Source of the DNA: Allonocardiopsis opalescens
Lineage (GTDB): Bacteria; Actinomycetota; Actinomycetes; Streptosporangiales; Streptosporangiaceae
Direction: 5' to 3'
Length of the DNA stretch: 64,000 nucleotides
Assembly: GCF_003002095.1 (NCBI RefSeq)
Contig: NZ_PVZC01000006.1
Coordinates: forward strand, 434,001-498,000
The notes beneath the pieces are model-generated. The model was not told the origin of the DNA, ran no database searches, and was given only the letters and a program-made list of their open reading frames with translations. This document shows, piece by piece, positions 46,503-52,904 of the stretch (the stretch's first letter is position 1; every line of letters begins with the position of its first letter). A program made the position numbers and the translations under genes.

Positions 46503-49160
46503 ATGGACCGCAGAGCCGAGACCCTGGCCCAGGAGATAGTTCGGCTCTCCCCCACAACACTTGCACGCCTGTGCGAACCGCGACTGCTCGAACGAGAACT
46601 GACGGGCATCATCGCAAGGGATCTCACCTTCCTTTTCGGCAGTGCATTCAGAGCGACATGGCAGGCGCTCGTGGAGACCACGGTCCCTCACGACGCATCG
46701 GCAAGCCGGATACGTCGCTTCGGAGACGAGTTCACCGCACGCGAATCGAGCGACGACACGTCCGCCACGATGCAGCTCTTCGCGATCGGACCGTTCCTGA
46801 GGAATCGAGCCGGAAGGCTCAGGTCTTTCTACGGAAGATTCCTCAGAGAACTGGACGCGGCATCGCTGGCGGACCCGCTTCCGGAGTACACCTGGACGTC
46901 GGTCGCGGGGCTCAGCGGAGGGCTGTCCGATTCCCACCGTGGTGGACGCCAGGTACTGATCGTGTCGTTCACGGACGGCACGCGCCTGGTGTACAAGCCG
47001 CGTTCACTCGCGCCTGAGGCCTTCTGGCAACGCTGGTGCCGGGCCGTCAATGCGAAGGCGGACCGGCCCCTGCTCGGATCCGCCCGTGTCTGGGACCGCG
47101 GCTCCCATGGCTGGATGGAGTATGTACCTGACCGTTTCGATGTCCTGCCGCCGTTGGCGCTGGCCGCACAGACCGGCTGCCTGCTCGCCGCCGCCCACCG
47201 CCTGGGGGCCACGGACGTGCACCGAGAGAACGTCCGCTTCTCCGCGCACGGCCCACTGCTCATCGACTGCGAGACGGTCCTGTCCCCCGGACTCGACGCG
47301 ACACGCCCTCGGCAGTGCGCTTCTTTCGTCCCTTGGTGGAATGAGGTCGCCGACACCGTTCTCTCGACTTCCGCGGTGACCGGCTACGTACTCAAGACCG
47401 ATGGGGCTTGGCGCTCCATCGGAGTCGTCAGCGCCCTCCTGGGCCACGCAGGTCCAGGCGAACGCGCTTCGCTGCTGACAGCGCTCAGAGGCGGGTACAT
47501 CGAATGCCATACCGCCATCGACCGGTATGTGAGGTCGAACGGACTCGCGAGGGACCTGAACTGCATAACAGAACTTCGTTTCCTCGCCCGCCGGACGAAC
47601 GCGTACGCGCGACTGCTTTCAGAATCGGTCGCAGCAGCCTCCCTTCGCCGAGAAGGAGACCGCAGGCGATCGATCAGCAAGCTACAGGAATGGCCGAGGC
47701 GAAGCGGGTCTGCCCTGCACAAGAAGATGGCCGACGCCGAAGCCTTTGATATCTCATCGGGAGACATCCCGTACTTCACCATTAACGCGAGAAGCAATGA
47801 ACTGCGCTCGTCGTCCGGCGAAAACCTGGGAACGGCCCCTGGCGAGAGCGCTGTCGCACGAGCCGGCAGGAAGAGTGGAGAGTTCGGCGCCGGTGCGGCC
47901 GAGAAGCAACTCGCAATAATAGAGATGGCGGTCAATCCGCCCGTTGCGGCCACAACAGACGTGGGATCCGTCCTACTCCAACCGCGGCATCAGGGCCGGT
48001 TCGACGAAGAGGTGATCGCACTCGCAGGAAGATACATCGACGATTGCCTTTCTCGGCACATCGTTCACGATGGACGAACGGTCGGATTGCTAGGAGCGTC
48101 CTTCGCCCCGCACAACGACCTTGTGACCGTGGCCCCCTTGAGCCAGGGCCTGTACTCCGGCCTCTCCGGGCTGGCGCTCTGCTACGCCTCCCACTGGAAG
48201 CTCACCGGCGACGAGCGTCTTTTCCGAGCCACGTCCGACATCGCGCGAGCCATATCCCACATGTACAACGCCGATACGACGGACTTGTGGAACGGGTTCA
48301 CCGGCGGGGTCTCCGACCTGTACGCACTGTGGGTCGCGTACCAGTACGTCCCCTCGCCGAACGTGGAGGAGGCTCTGTCCCTTGTCGACCGGTACGTGTC
48401 CCAGGCCCGCTTCGAACCCGAGAGCCTTGGTGCCGACGTCGTCGGAGGTGCCGCGGGAATGGCACTCACCCTCACCGCACTACGCGGATCTGGGCTTTCC
48501 GCTGCTGACGACGGCTTGCTGGCACGCGTGCTACGTCGTCTCGAAGGAGGAATCCTCGGCGGGAGCGGGGCGGAGACACTGTCCGAGATGGGCATGGCCC
48601 ACGGACGGTTGGGTCTGGTCTTCTCGGCGACGCGGGTCGCTCATGCCCTTGGCGCACCTCAAGCCGCATGGCATCAGCGCATGCTGGAAACCGGTGAGAA
48701 GCTCTTCGAGCTCTGTGTGAAAGCCCGGTCCTTCGCGGCCGTCAGTTGGTGCCGGGGACTGGTCGGCGCGGCCGCGGCCCTGCTCGATACCGAGCGGTCC
48801 ACTGGGGAGCGCTGCCCCTTCGCCGACGAGGTGGTCGCCTGGATCCTCGATCACCAGGACCTGGTCCAGGGCCGCTCCCTGTGCTGCGGGCAAGCAGCCG
48901 TCGCCGACGTGTTGGCGAGCCTGCGCGACAGACCGGGCTCAGGACCTCAAGAGCCTGAGCCTGATCTGCCGCCAGCGGGTGCCGCGCTCACCCGACTCCT
49001 CTCACAGCCGCAGAACCCGCGTCTGCCTTCTGCGGTCGCCTACCCCGGGATGATGCAGGGAAGTGCCGGCGTCGCATACACGCTTCTCCGTTCGACGTAC
49101 GCGGGCCGCGGCCTTCCTTCCTTGCTTTCCTGCAGCCCACCCGTTTCCGAAGGACCCTGA
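46503..49160 (+). CDS. lanM: Class II lanthipeptide synthetase LanM
   Basis: A bifunctional enzyme of 885 residues that dehydrates Ser/Thr in the precursor and adds Cys to form (methyl)lanthionine rings. Dehydratase (DUF4135, kinase-like) region: GLSDSHRGGRQVLI, LVYKPRSL near 164, ATDVHRENVRF near 237 and LIDCETVLSP near 255. LanC cyclase: GLYSGLSGLALCYA near 548, MAHGRLGLVFSATR near 696, zinc ligands Cys in SWCRGL near 748 and Cys-Cys in LCCGQAAV near 793, and PGMMQGSAGVAYTLLR near 847. The CCG form (three Cys) replaces the commoner CHG. No clear ribosome site precedes the ATG, which lies 57 bp after the lanA stop in the same frame. Codon use is AT-richer than in neighbouring genes, suggesting transfer. 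Confidence 0.95.
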   Translation: MDRRAETLAQEIVRLSPTTLARLCEPRLLERELTGIIARDLTFLFGSAFRATWQALVETTVPHDASASRIRRFGDEFTARESSDDTSATMQLFAIGPFLRNRAGRLRSFYGRFLRELDAASLADPLPEYTWTSVAGLSGGLSDSHRGGRQVLIVSFTDGTRLVYKPRSLAPEAFWQRWCRAVNAKADRPLLGSARVWDRGSHGWMEYVPDRFDVLPPLALAAQTGCLLAAAHRLGATDVHRENVRFSAHGPLLIDCETVLSPGLDATRPRQCASFVPWWNEVADTVLSTSAVTGYVLKTDGAWRSIGVVSALLGHAGPGERASLLTALRGGYIECHTAIDRYVRSNGLARDLNCITELRFLARRTNAYARLLSESVAAASLRREGDRRRSISKLQEWPRRSGSALHKKMADAEAFDISSGDIPYFTINARSNELRSSSGENLGTAPGESAVARAGRKSGEFGAGAAEKQLAIIEMAVNPPVAATTDVGSVLLQPRHQGRFDEEVIALAGRYIDDCLSRHIVHDGRTVGLLGASFAPHNDLVTVAPLSQGLYSGLSGLALCYASHWKLTGDERLFRATSDIARAISHMYNADTTDLWNGFTGGVSDLYALWVAYQYVPSPNVEEALSLVDRYVSQARFEPESLGADVVGGAAGMALTLTALRGSGLSAADDGLLARVLRRLEGGILGGSGAETLSEMGMAHGRLGLVFSATRVAHALGAPQAAWHQRMLETGEKLFELCVKARSFAAVSWCRGLVGAAAALLDTERSTGERCPFADEVVAWILDHQDLVQGRSLCCGQAAVADVLASLRDRPGSGPQEPEPDLPPAGAALTRLLSQPQNPRLPSAVAYPGMMQGSAGVAYTLLRSTYAGRGLPSLLSCSPPVSEGP

Positions 49161-49191: not shown

Positions 49192-51693
<2,502 letters not shown>

Positions 51694-51744
51694 CGCTGGT
51701 CCTCATCGCTTAGCTGGGCAGGGGGTCGGCTGGCCCGGGGGCAC

Positions 51745-51770
51745 AAAAAAGCCCCTCAGGCAGTGAGGGG
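51745..51770 (-). terminator. Attenuator terminator in the leuS leader
   Basis: On the minus strand: CCCCTCA, loop CTGCC, TGAGGGG, then CTTTTTT. The stem spans 51752-51770 and the T-tract 51745-51750. It sits between the leader peptide and leuS, about 50 nt before the leuS start, so termination here would prevent leuS expression. It is one of the few terminators in this window with a T-tract. Confidence 0.85.
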
Positions 51771-51791
51771 TGGCCGCGTCGGGATCTCAGT

Positions 51792-51830
51792 TCACCGGCG
51801 CGGCTGGCTAAGGAGCAGCCGATTCCGCAT
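51792..51830 (-). CDS. leuL: leuS leader peptide (attenuation)
   Basis: A 12-codon ORF MRNRLLLSQPRR with three consecutive Leu codons (CTG CTC CTT), 21 nt upstream of an intrinsic terminator and 98 nt upstream of leuS. This is the architecture of ribosome-mediated transcription attenuation: slow decoding of Leu codons would favour an antiterminator. A TACTCT -10-like hexamer (51837-51842) lies six bases before the ATG, so the leader may start at the A of its ATG (leaderless). The antiterminator pairing was not resolved by eye. Confidence 0.75.
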   Translation of the reverse strand: MRNRLLLSQPRR

Positions 51831-51836
51831 ACACGA

Positions 51837-51842
51837 AGAGTA
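51837..51842 (-). promoter_or_regulatory. -10 element of the leuS leader
   Basis: TACTCT on the minus strand, matching TAnnnT, spaced for a transcript starting at or next to the leader peptide ATG. No good -35 is visible. Confidence 0.5.
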
Positions 51843-52064
51843 CCGCACGGGGGAAGGGCGCGTGCGGATTCGCACCGGAGGGCGGACGTACCCGGTCGAC
51901 CGCGGGGATCGCGTGGTCGTGCGTACGCGTGGCGTTATCAGCGCACTATCGGCGCCTATGTCGCTAAATGTACATATGTCATTACACATGGACACCGGTG
52001 GATCGGGGAATGAGCGGGCCGTGCCGGCGAGCTGCGCCGGCCGTCCCCCGTTAAGGAGTCCCCC

Positions 52065-52904
52065 ATGCCCCATCGGCTCGGTCGCCTGCTCAGACCCGGT
52101 CGTCACGCACTCCTGGCCGCCGCGGCGGCCGCCGCCCTGGTCGTCGGACCGCTCGCCCTGGCCGCCCCCGCCACGGCGACGACCGCCACCGCGACGGCCT
52201 CGGCCACCGCCCTGGCCCGCCCCAACTTCCAGACCCCGCTCGCCTGCGGCGAGACGTGGAACGCCAACACCCGCACCAACCACAACCCGCAGAACTCGGT
52301 GGACTTCCAGCGCTCCGGCGCCCTGGGCCGCGCCACCCTCGCCAGCGCCTCGGGCACGGTCACCACCGTGCGCGACCTGGGCGGCACCAGCTACGGCCGG
52401 TACATCGTCATCGACCACGGCGACGGCTGGACCTCCCTGTACGCGCACCTCGCCTCCTTCAACGTGAGCGTCGGGCAGCGGGTCACCGTCGGGCAGCGGA
52501 TCGGCAGCGTCGGCAGCACCGGCGGGTCCACCGGGCCCCACCTGCACTACGAGCAGCGGTCGGGCGGGAGCGCGGTGCGGGTCATCGTCAACGGCCTCGC
52601 GATCCGCTACTTCGGGAACACCACCGTGACCAGCAGCAACGGCTGCGGAGGCGGCGGCGAGGCGACGGGCACGGTGCGCACCGCGGGCCCGGCGCTGACC
52701 GTGCGCGCCCAGCCGACCACCGCCTCGGCCGCCGTCGGCTCCCGCGCCAACGGCTCGACGGTGACCATCCAGTGCCAGGTCCGCGGCCAGTCGGTCACCG
52801 GCACCTACGGCACCAGCGACCTGTGGGACTACATCGGCAGCGGCTACATCGCCGACGCCTACGTCTACACCGGCTCCGACGGCCAGGTCGCCCCGACCTG
52901 CTGA
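52065..52904 (+). CDS. Secreted M23 family metallopeptidase with SH3 domain
   Basis: A 279-residue exported peptidoglycan hydrolase. N-terminal signal peptide (basic RLLRPGRH, hydrophobic LLAAAAAAALVVGPLALAA, AxA cleavage near residue 40). LytM/M23 domain at ~50-185 with zinc ligands in NSVDF and the GPHLHYE motif near 165. Two Cys in the domain; C-terminal SH3b domain from ~205 (ALTVRAQPTTASAAVGSRA) for wall binding. ATG preceded by AAGGAG. Independent gene divergent from leuS. Confidence 0.9.
   Translation: MPHRLGRLLRPGRHALLAAAAAAALVVGPLALAAPATATTATATASATALARPNFQTPLACGETWNANTRTNHNPQNSVDFQRSGALGRATLASASGTVTTVRDLGGTSYGRYIVIDHGDGWTSLYAHLASFNVSVGQRVTVGQRIGSVGSTGGSTGPHLHYEQRSGGSAVRVIVNGLAIRYFGNTTVTSSNGCGGGGEATGTVRTAGPALTVRAQPTTASAAVGSRANGSTVTIQCQVRGQSVTGTYGTSDLWDYIGSGYIADAYVYTGSDGQVAPTC

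Follow-up and report, generated by a model that had tools for sequence, protein, structure and literature searches.

Control of leuS by a leader peptide has precedents in Streptomyces. Classical attenuators upstream of this gene were predicted for S. avermitilis and S. coelicolor in 2005 (PMC1262725), and a report from 2021 describes leader-peptide control at four synthetase genes of S. lividans (PMC8079986). According to that report, the peptide LeuL2, MRAVRLLLSEPR, lies before leuS, is transcribed leaderless and is followed by a hairpin with a uridine stretch (PMC8079986). Leaders of ilvB were also already known (PMC1262725, PMC10272879). As outlined in PMC10272879, actinobacterial ilvB leaders and Corynebacterium ilvB-II carry a short uORF with branched-chain codons, a hairpin P1 and then a terminator stem P2, a layout like that of the leuS leader analysed here, which differs from ilvB-II in gene and codons.

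This leader lies on the minus strand of a 64,000-nucleotide stretch of the Allonocardiopsis opalescens genome, hereafter the window. Read from the sequence, it consists of a promoter, six bases, a 12-codon ORF, a hairpin (P1) and a terminator (T), followed by leuS (Table 1). The codons of the ORF are ATG CGG AAT CGG CTG CTC CTT AGC CAG CCG CGC CGG TGA. P1 begins 5 nt past the last Leu codon, and its 5' arm overlaps the end of the ORF. T follows 2 nt after P1, with a gap of 21 nt between ORF and terminator, and the leuS ATG at 51693 stands 51 bases past the terminator. The leuS gene is the sole match to TIGR00396 above the cut-off in the whole genome. Scanning positions 51600-52100 found only one terminator, T, against a mean of 0.1 in shuffled sequences. 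The folding energy of the leader is -35.2 kcal/mol (z -2.19, matched by 6 of 200 shuffles), and the naked RNA forms a small hairpin over the Leu codons together with P1 and the terminator. An earlier, sequence-only reading had placed the Leu-codon ORF, the terminator and leuS at coordinates that prove exact to the base, and the TAnnnT -10 that it saw six bases before the leader ATG is present at that spacing as TACTCT; P1, the second hairpin between the Leu codons and the terminator, was absent from it. Convergent with leuS, a gene at 46503-49160 on the plus strand encodes a lanthipeptide synthetase-like protein (TIGR03897, 279.2 bits, below the cut-off of 304). Divergent from the leader, a peptidoglycan hydrolase-like gene occupies 52065-52904 (+), its best NCBIfam match, NF052336, falling far below the cut-off.

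Table 1. Features of the leuS leader in the window and of related leaders elsewhere in the same genome (G000)
Feature	Position	Strand	Details and basis
Promoter TGCGGTACTCT	51847-51837	-	TGCG 51847-51844, G, -10 hexamer TACTCT 51842-51837
Leader ORF MRNRLLLSQPRR, probably leaderless	51830-51792	-	start codon 6 nt past -10; stop TGA 51794-51792
Regulatory Leu codons CTG CTC CTT, rare CTT last	51818-51810	-	codon comparison across 70 leaders
Hairpin P1	51804-51773	-	arms GCCGCG 51804-51799 and CGCGGC 51778-51773; fold, covariation, geometry
Terminator T, intrinsic	51770-51745	-	CCCCTCA 51770-51764, CTGCC loop, TGAGGGG 51758-51752, C, T6 51750-51745
Probable leuS ribosome-binding site GAGGA	51704-51700	-	inferred from sequence
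leuS, leucyl-tRNA synthetase, 833 aa	51693-49192	-	TIGR00396 915.9 bits, cut-off 548.4
cimA leader VPLQVIIIHRRAG, three Ile codons (locus L190)	G000:C9:271297-271403	-	model match
ilvB leader VHGKLFILVLGRRAAS (locus L260)	G000:C1, upstream of 914113		hairpin-terminator pair of similar layout

Comparison with other genomes indicates that this arrangement is not a chance one. A survey of 133 loci upstream of leuS, with some species present twice, yielded a leader at 70 by a simple rule that demands the -10 hexamer at 5-9 bases before the start codon. From 51 of these 70, with long-insert, near-duplicate and odd leaders left out, a covariance model (R1) was built; a second model (R2) was rebuilt from 50 leaders with the window sequence excluded. 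Run against the 7-Mb genome of the window, R2 returns the window leader as its top match (69.7 bits, E 4.5e-17, E-values being rough), and in a search of the window alone the leader scores E 4.1e-19; as the best match of a leave-one-out model in its own genome, the leader is not a product of chance. Across 72 sources, R1 gave 27 matches, eight of them outside the 70 loci and two of those eight weak (L025, L026). The first DNA search had also returned three weaker matches, at E of about 5e-4 to 1e-3.

Both hairpins show covariation. Over the 51 leaders, including that of the window, 94.1% of cells in P1 and T are paired, and two-sided changes occur in 13 of 19 pairs (8 of 11 in P1, 5 of 8 in T). 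In 500 shuffles, four of the five covariation measures are never attained, and the remaining one, further pair types, is attained 9 times, although the P1/T structure was set from the same alignment, which somewhat favours this result. When the partner is slid by 1-3 columns, pairing falls to 39-55%. The leaders have common ancestry, so counts of leaders are not counts of independent events.

The same models tie the window to the Streptomyces leader. R1, which was built without those loci, finds MRAVRLLLSEPR before leuS at 10 loci (L159, L161-L166, L168-L170), all in one family of 6-11-Mb genomes. Since R1 recovers the LeuL2 peptide and R2 recovers the window, the window leader is a further member of the LeuL2 kind: it has a Leu-run ORF directly upstream of leuS, an intrinsic terminator between the two and a shared covariance model. 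A 12-residue, Leu-rich ORF, a terminator and leuS are common to both, and the leaderless start reported for LeuL2 is probable in the window. The LeuS proteins themselves are of different types, that of the window being 52-54% identical over residues 159-591 to those of the LeuL2 loci, and its host belongs to another family.

R1 also reaches beyond leuS, including to ilvB leaders. Reading of 89 model-match loci gave a start codon at 87 (none at L152 and L194; L147 was not used further). By motif, these 87 comprise 29 cimA leaders with Ile codons, 27 leuS leaders with Leu codons, 24 ilvB leaders with Ile/Leu/Val codons and 7 unplaced loci, the last being two leuA leaders with Leu codons, L215 and four of leuS type (including L147). 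The codon run thus tracks the downstream gene, with Leu codons ahead of leuS and leuA, Ile codons ahead of cimA and Ile/Leu/Val codons ahead of ilvB. In the genome of the window, the module precedes cimA, whose citramalate synthase scores 609.4 bits against TIGR00977 (cut-off 450). The leuA leaders, MTNLLLT and MKHLLLIESARH (L206 and L227; two genomes, one genus), come with the same hairpin-terminator pair. For leuA of other Actinobacteria, PMC1262725 describes a LEU element of another form, a pseudoknot in which Leu codons pair with the leuA Shine-Dalgarno sequence, with no terminator. At L215, the module with Ile codons (MFTPRIII) precedes the gene of a small protein which, judged by eye, resembles an ACT-domain protein and has no NCBIfam match at E 1e-20.

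Within the codon runs, rare codons are strongly preferred. The Leu run ends in CTT in 64 of 70 leuS leaders (62 of 68 distinct ones), where 1.6 of 70 would be expected from the leuS genes at these loci, in which CTT accounts for 2.05% of 4586 Leu codons. The second Leu codon is CTC or CTT in 51 of 70. ATT stands within the last two regulatory codons of all 29 cimA leaders, against a background of 2.97% of Ile codons, and GTA is present in all 24 ilvB leaders, against 1.7% of Val codons, both backgrounds being taken from the leuS genes of the 70 leuS loci and not from the cimA or ilvB genomes. Such rare codons may sharpen the sensitivity of the stall.

We consider it likely, with good confidence from comparative sequence analysis, that leuS is under Leu-codon-specific, ribosome-mediated transcription attenuation by a leaderless leader; this claim leaves the step involving P1 aside. 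We infer the start site, the translation of the leader and the starvation response. Transcription would start at the leader ATG, or one to two bases from it, and a 70S ribosome would begin translating the leader right at the 5' end of the transcript. When Leu-tRNA is plentiful, this ribosome would pass the Leu codons to the stop codon and cover the 5' arm of P1; T would then fold freely, and transcription would end before leuS. With scarce Leu-tRNA, the ribosome would stall on CTG CTC CTT, its leading edge resting at the base of P1; P1 would then fold, and transcription would read through into leuS. Very probably, more leucyl-tRNA synthetase would be made when charged leucine is low.

The position of P1 is consistent with these steps. 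In 93 of 93 leuS, 28 of 28 cimA, 2 of 2 leuA and 19 of 22 ilvB leaders (duplicate leaders removed), a ribosome that has arrived at the stop codon overlies 6 nt or more of P1 yet stays clear of T, and in those leaders no more than 3 nt of P1 is hidden by a ribosome stalled at the penultimate regulatory codon. For leuS, all 93 distinct leaders have at least 7 nt of P1 covered by the ribosome at stop, which ends at least 8 nt before the terminator. P1 starts 4-5 nt past the last Leu codon in 82 of 93. This geometry is partly set by construction: the search for P1 at the first 70 loci was confined to 1-12 nt past the Leu run, and at the other loci the last regulatory codon was defined as the last before P1; only ORF length constrained where the stop could lie. 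The gap from P1 to T is 0, 1 and 2 nt in 71, 18 and 4 of the 93, counted with P1 cut at T, T extended as far as its pairing runs and gaps of up to 6 allowed. Competition between P1 and T for shared bases was rejected as a general feature, an overlap of at least 1 nt occurring in only 22 of 93 leuS leaders.

How P1 would act is a more tentative matter. Because its foot lies 0-2 nt from T and the two cannot share the RNA exit channel, P1 may itself antagonise T sterically, a reading that we put forward with reserve. If starvation is to raise expression, as would serve homeostasis, P1 should oppose termination, being a hairpin that would form only in the stalled or ribosome-free state. Against this steric step, the ribosome-free folds of E. 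coli trpL, pheM, pheL and hisL also place a helix just 2-3 nt from the terminator, and leaders of this type terminate without translation. In the other controls, the helix-to-terminator distance is 16 nt (thrL) and 7 nt (leuL). Somewhat more doubtful still, though possible, is the general form of the idea: that Actinomycetes use one modular leaderless attenuator that needs no pairing antiterminator, whose codon run is swapped by gene and whose hairpin, flush between stall site and terminator, arises only with a stalled or absent ribosome and blocks by position.

Alternatively, P1 could be an RNA-polymerase pause hairpin that gives the leaderless ribosome time to catch up, with the stalled ribosome, or its contact with the polymerase, keeping T from folding. 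Pause hairpins occur in the trp and his leaders, and P1 both covaries and directly adjoins T; the polymerase would presumably then pause within the terminator loop. A pause alone gives no reason for the 4-5 nt spacing between the last Leu codon and the start of P1 that 82 of 93 leuS leaders show, and we regard this account as unlikely.

A further alternative is attenuation of the classical E. coli trp type, in which an upstream strand, set free by ribosome stalling, forms an antiterminator with the terminator's 5' arm. E. coli attenuators also carry regulatory codons, and the position of the ribosome sets termination or readthrough, as proposed for the leuS leader, which differs from them in being probably leaderless. 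To test for it, a stalled ribosome was placed with the last regulatory codon in its A site, and the RNA that it leaves uncovered was folded up to the terminator loop, with the ribosome front edge set at P-site +15 and truncated folds used; 68 of the 70 leuS leaders entered, two with more than 90 nt between Leu run and terminator being excluded. In six E. coli controls (thrL, trpL, pheM, leuL, pheL and hisL), 0.64-0.80 of the terminator 5' arm pairs upstream, against 0.40-0.53 in shuffles, with duplex z of -1.4 to -3.8 (-1.6 to -3.6 against the arm alone). In the 68 leuS leaders with the last Leu codon in the A site, by contrast, only 0.17 of the arm is paired upstream (shuffles 0.43), and the duplex z averages +0.48 at e+9. 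With earlier stalls the paired fraction is 0.02-0.05, and with the edge moved 3 or 6 nt further it is 0.36 or 0.41, against 0.45 or 0.41 in shuffles. An antiterminator is therefore found in 6 of 6 controls and not detected in the leuS leaders.

The same test gave no excess upstream pairing in 29 cimA, 23 ilvB and 11 Streptomyces-type leuS leaders, no terminator being found for L234 and L192. The 'classical' antiterminator label published for the Streptomyces leuS leader is thus unsupported by folding. For ilvB-II, the P1 loop is proposed to pair with P2 (PMC10272879), whereas the leuS segment has no excess complementarity to either terminator arm. The classical model has the support of PMC1262725, where leuS in both S. 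avermitilis and S. coelicolor is given antiterminator hairpins. Within the window, the segment CGGTGA (51797-51792) could also pair with TCACTG (51766-51761) at about -6 kcal/mol if the edge were 12 nt past the Leu run, and half or more of the arm is paired in 9, 26 and 32 of the 68 leaders at e+9, e+12 and e+15. Upstream pairing that does not exceed shuffles in 68 leaders, when all six controls exceed them, nevertheless makes this model quite unlikely. The mutually exclusive structures that the sequence-only reading called for were accordingly not detected in classical form among the 68 leaders, and attenuation here is not classical by the measure of folding. The results also indicate that the terminator arm is shielded from other pairings while P1 stands.

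Other pairings were considered and set aside. By eye, pairing of the Leu codons with the 3' arm of the terminator is not kept in relatives, and that of CTTAGC with a GCTAAG before leuS is confined to the window. The equilibrium probability of the terminator is high in most ribosome states of the leuS leaders and, being high in the E. coli controls too, does not discriminate.

On a more sceptical view, the ORF would be an untranslated decoration, and T would either stop part of transcription constitutively or mark where a small RNA ends. Changes to the regulatory codons of the S. coelicolor ilvB leader are reported to be without effect, which suits this view, and changes to the leuA leader of that species had effects inconsistent with classical attenuation (PMC1262725). 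Both reports weigh against the attenuation proposed here for leuS. Codon identity that follows gene function across leuS, leuA, cimA and ilvB, and a rare CTT kept in 64 of 70 leaders, speak against decoration, which we hold to be very improbable.

The leaderless start bears on one more alternative, namely that transcription begins further upstream and the ORF is initiated internally. The gap from TANNNT to the start codon is 6 in 66 of 70 leaders. Since the first rule already required the hexamer at 5-9 bases, the count was repeated without the -10 filter: TANNNT stands at gap 6 in 49 of 60 short LLL ORFs, and each of the other gaps between 0 and 39 accounts for three at most. No Shine-Dalgarno-like sequence stands directly 5' of the leader ATG (tcgtgt), and the LeuL2 transcript of S. 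lividans is reported to be leaderless (PMC8079986). A -35 element, in contrast, was not found, which would suit an upstream start: among 67 distinct leuS-leader promoters, the TTGACA match is no better than in shuffles, and none is seen in the window. A scan of the window leader region likewise gave no sigma-70-type promoter. Taken together, an upstream start is highly unlikely, and the leader ORF of this organism is probably leaderless, as judged from its sequence context. The proposal of a leaderless, translated Leu leader with an attenuator, made before any comparison, thus fits the comparative data: the gap of 6, the recurring Leu run with T, codons that match the gene and the S. lividans leader.

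The promoters share further sequence. At positions -5 to -2 before TANNNT, the 67 distinct promoters have T at 0.93, G at 0.93, C at 0.87 and G at 0.97. TGCG(C/G)TANNNT, lacking a -35, is common to them and to the window (51847-51837, minus strand). Compared with the usual extended -10, its TG stands two bases further away from the hexamer.

T-boxes are a common control of synthetase genes in Firmicutes. PMC1262725 also names them as the usual one there. Neither the window nor any of 20 leader loci contains an Rfam family, T-box aptamer included, that attains its gathering score, and only 86 nt separate the putative start from the end of T; control of leuS by a T-box or ligand riboswitch is exceedingly improbable.

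The module is widespread, with a distinct gap near the window. In a class sample, 122 of 197 genomes have an R1 match at E 0.01; in a family sample, all 150 do at E 0.001, with any downstream gene; and in a phylum sample, 19 of 197 do, 6 of them outside the class. One of these six (G404) has a leuS leader, MAAALLLSPPR, and the other five lie near leuA (one) or ilvB (four). Within the family, leuS could be placed in 144 genomes, of which at least 95 have, among the matches listed, a strong one no more than 600 nt upstream of the gene, and two of the 49 counted as lacking a leader (G015 and G026) carry long-insert leaders (L043 and L033). Five genomes (G002, G011, G035, G052 and G088) have two leuS genes, each with a leader match, the second leuS being divergent.

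On a FastTree of LeuS proteins (110 of 133 rows; local SH-like support), the window genome is sister, with support 99, to 36 rows that include Nocardiopsis and Thermobifida, none of which has a leader by the rule. The hexamer GCTAACCT is still upstream of leuS in 34 of the 36, and cimA leader matches also occur in genomes of this clade (L176-L178, L180 and L181). The simplest reading is a single loss of the leuS leader right after the lineage of the window split off. A Microbispora-like clade also has no leader by the rule, with at most weak matches of 28.2 and 22.8 bits at two loci; by eye, its leader looks decayed. That the sister clade does without the leader counts against attenuation. The sequence-only reading had made its idea depend on conservation in related leuS leaders; the Leu run and the terminator do recur across the class, and the leader is absent from the sister clade. 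Had the closest relatives alone been examined, that rule would have rejected the attenuation idea.

These results place the leuS leader among several described systems without equating it with any. The mycobacterial polycysteine leaders that Canestrari reportedly described in 2020 are said to be leaderless and to sense a codon run, as the leuS leader would, upstream of other genes, and are said not to be built on an intrinsic terminator. A comparative survey by the Lyubetsky group from 2010 reportedly may include more leuS leaders. Among the matches listed for that group, judged by title, only PMC1262725 bears on leuS leaders. For the cimA leader, no report was found among the matches listed in a search of open papers, and this is weak evidence of novelty, as subscription papers lay outside the search. 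The present comparison adds an anatomy shared across the class, a rule on rare codons, leaders of the same build before cimA and leuA, the loss in a whole clade and the failure to detect an antiterminator; the last sets the leader apart, as a variant, from plain classical attenuation.

The module shows natural codon swaps between genes, and its layout is one that the standard antiterminator model does not explain. The cimA leader points toward isoleucine control of the citramalate route. If a modular attenuator that blocks by position is indeed at work, loss of translation should raise, not lower, readthrough. Leader-peptide control of synthetases has been described in few bacteria, and here a conserved, probably leaderless version of it extends across a bacterial class.
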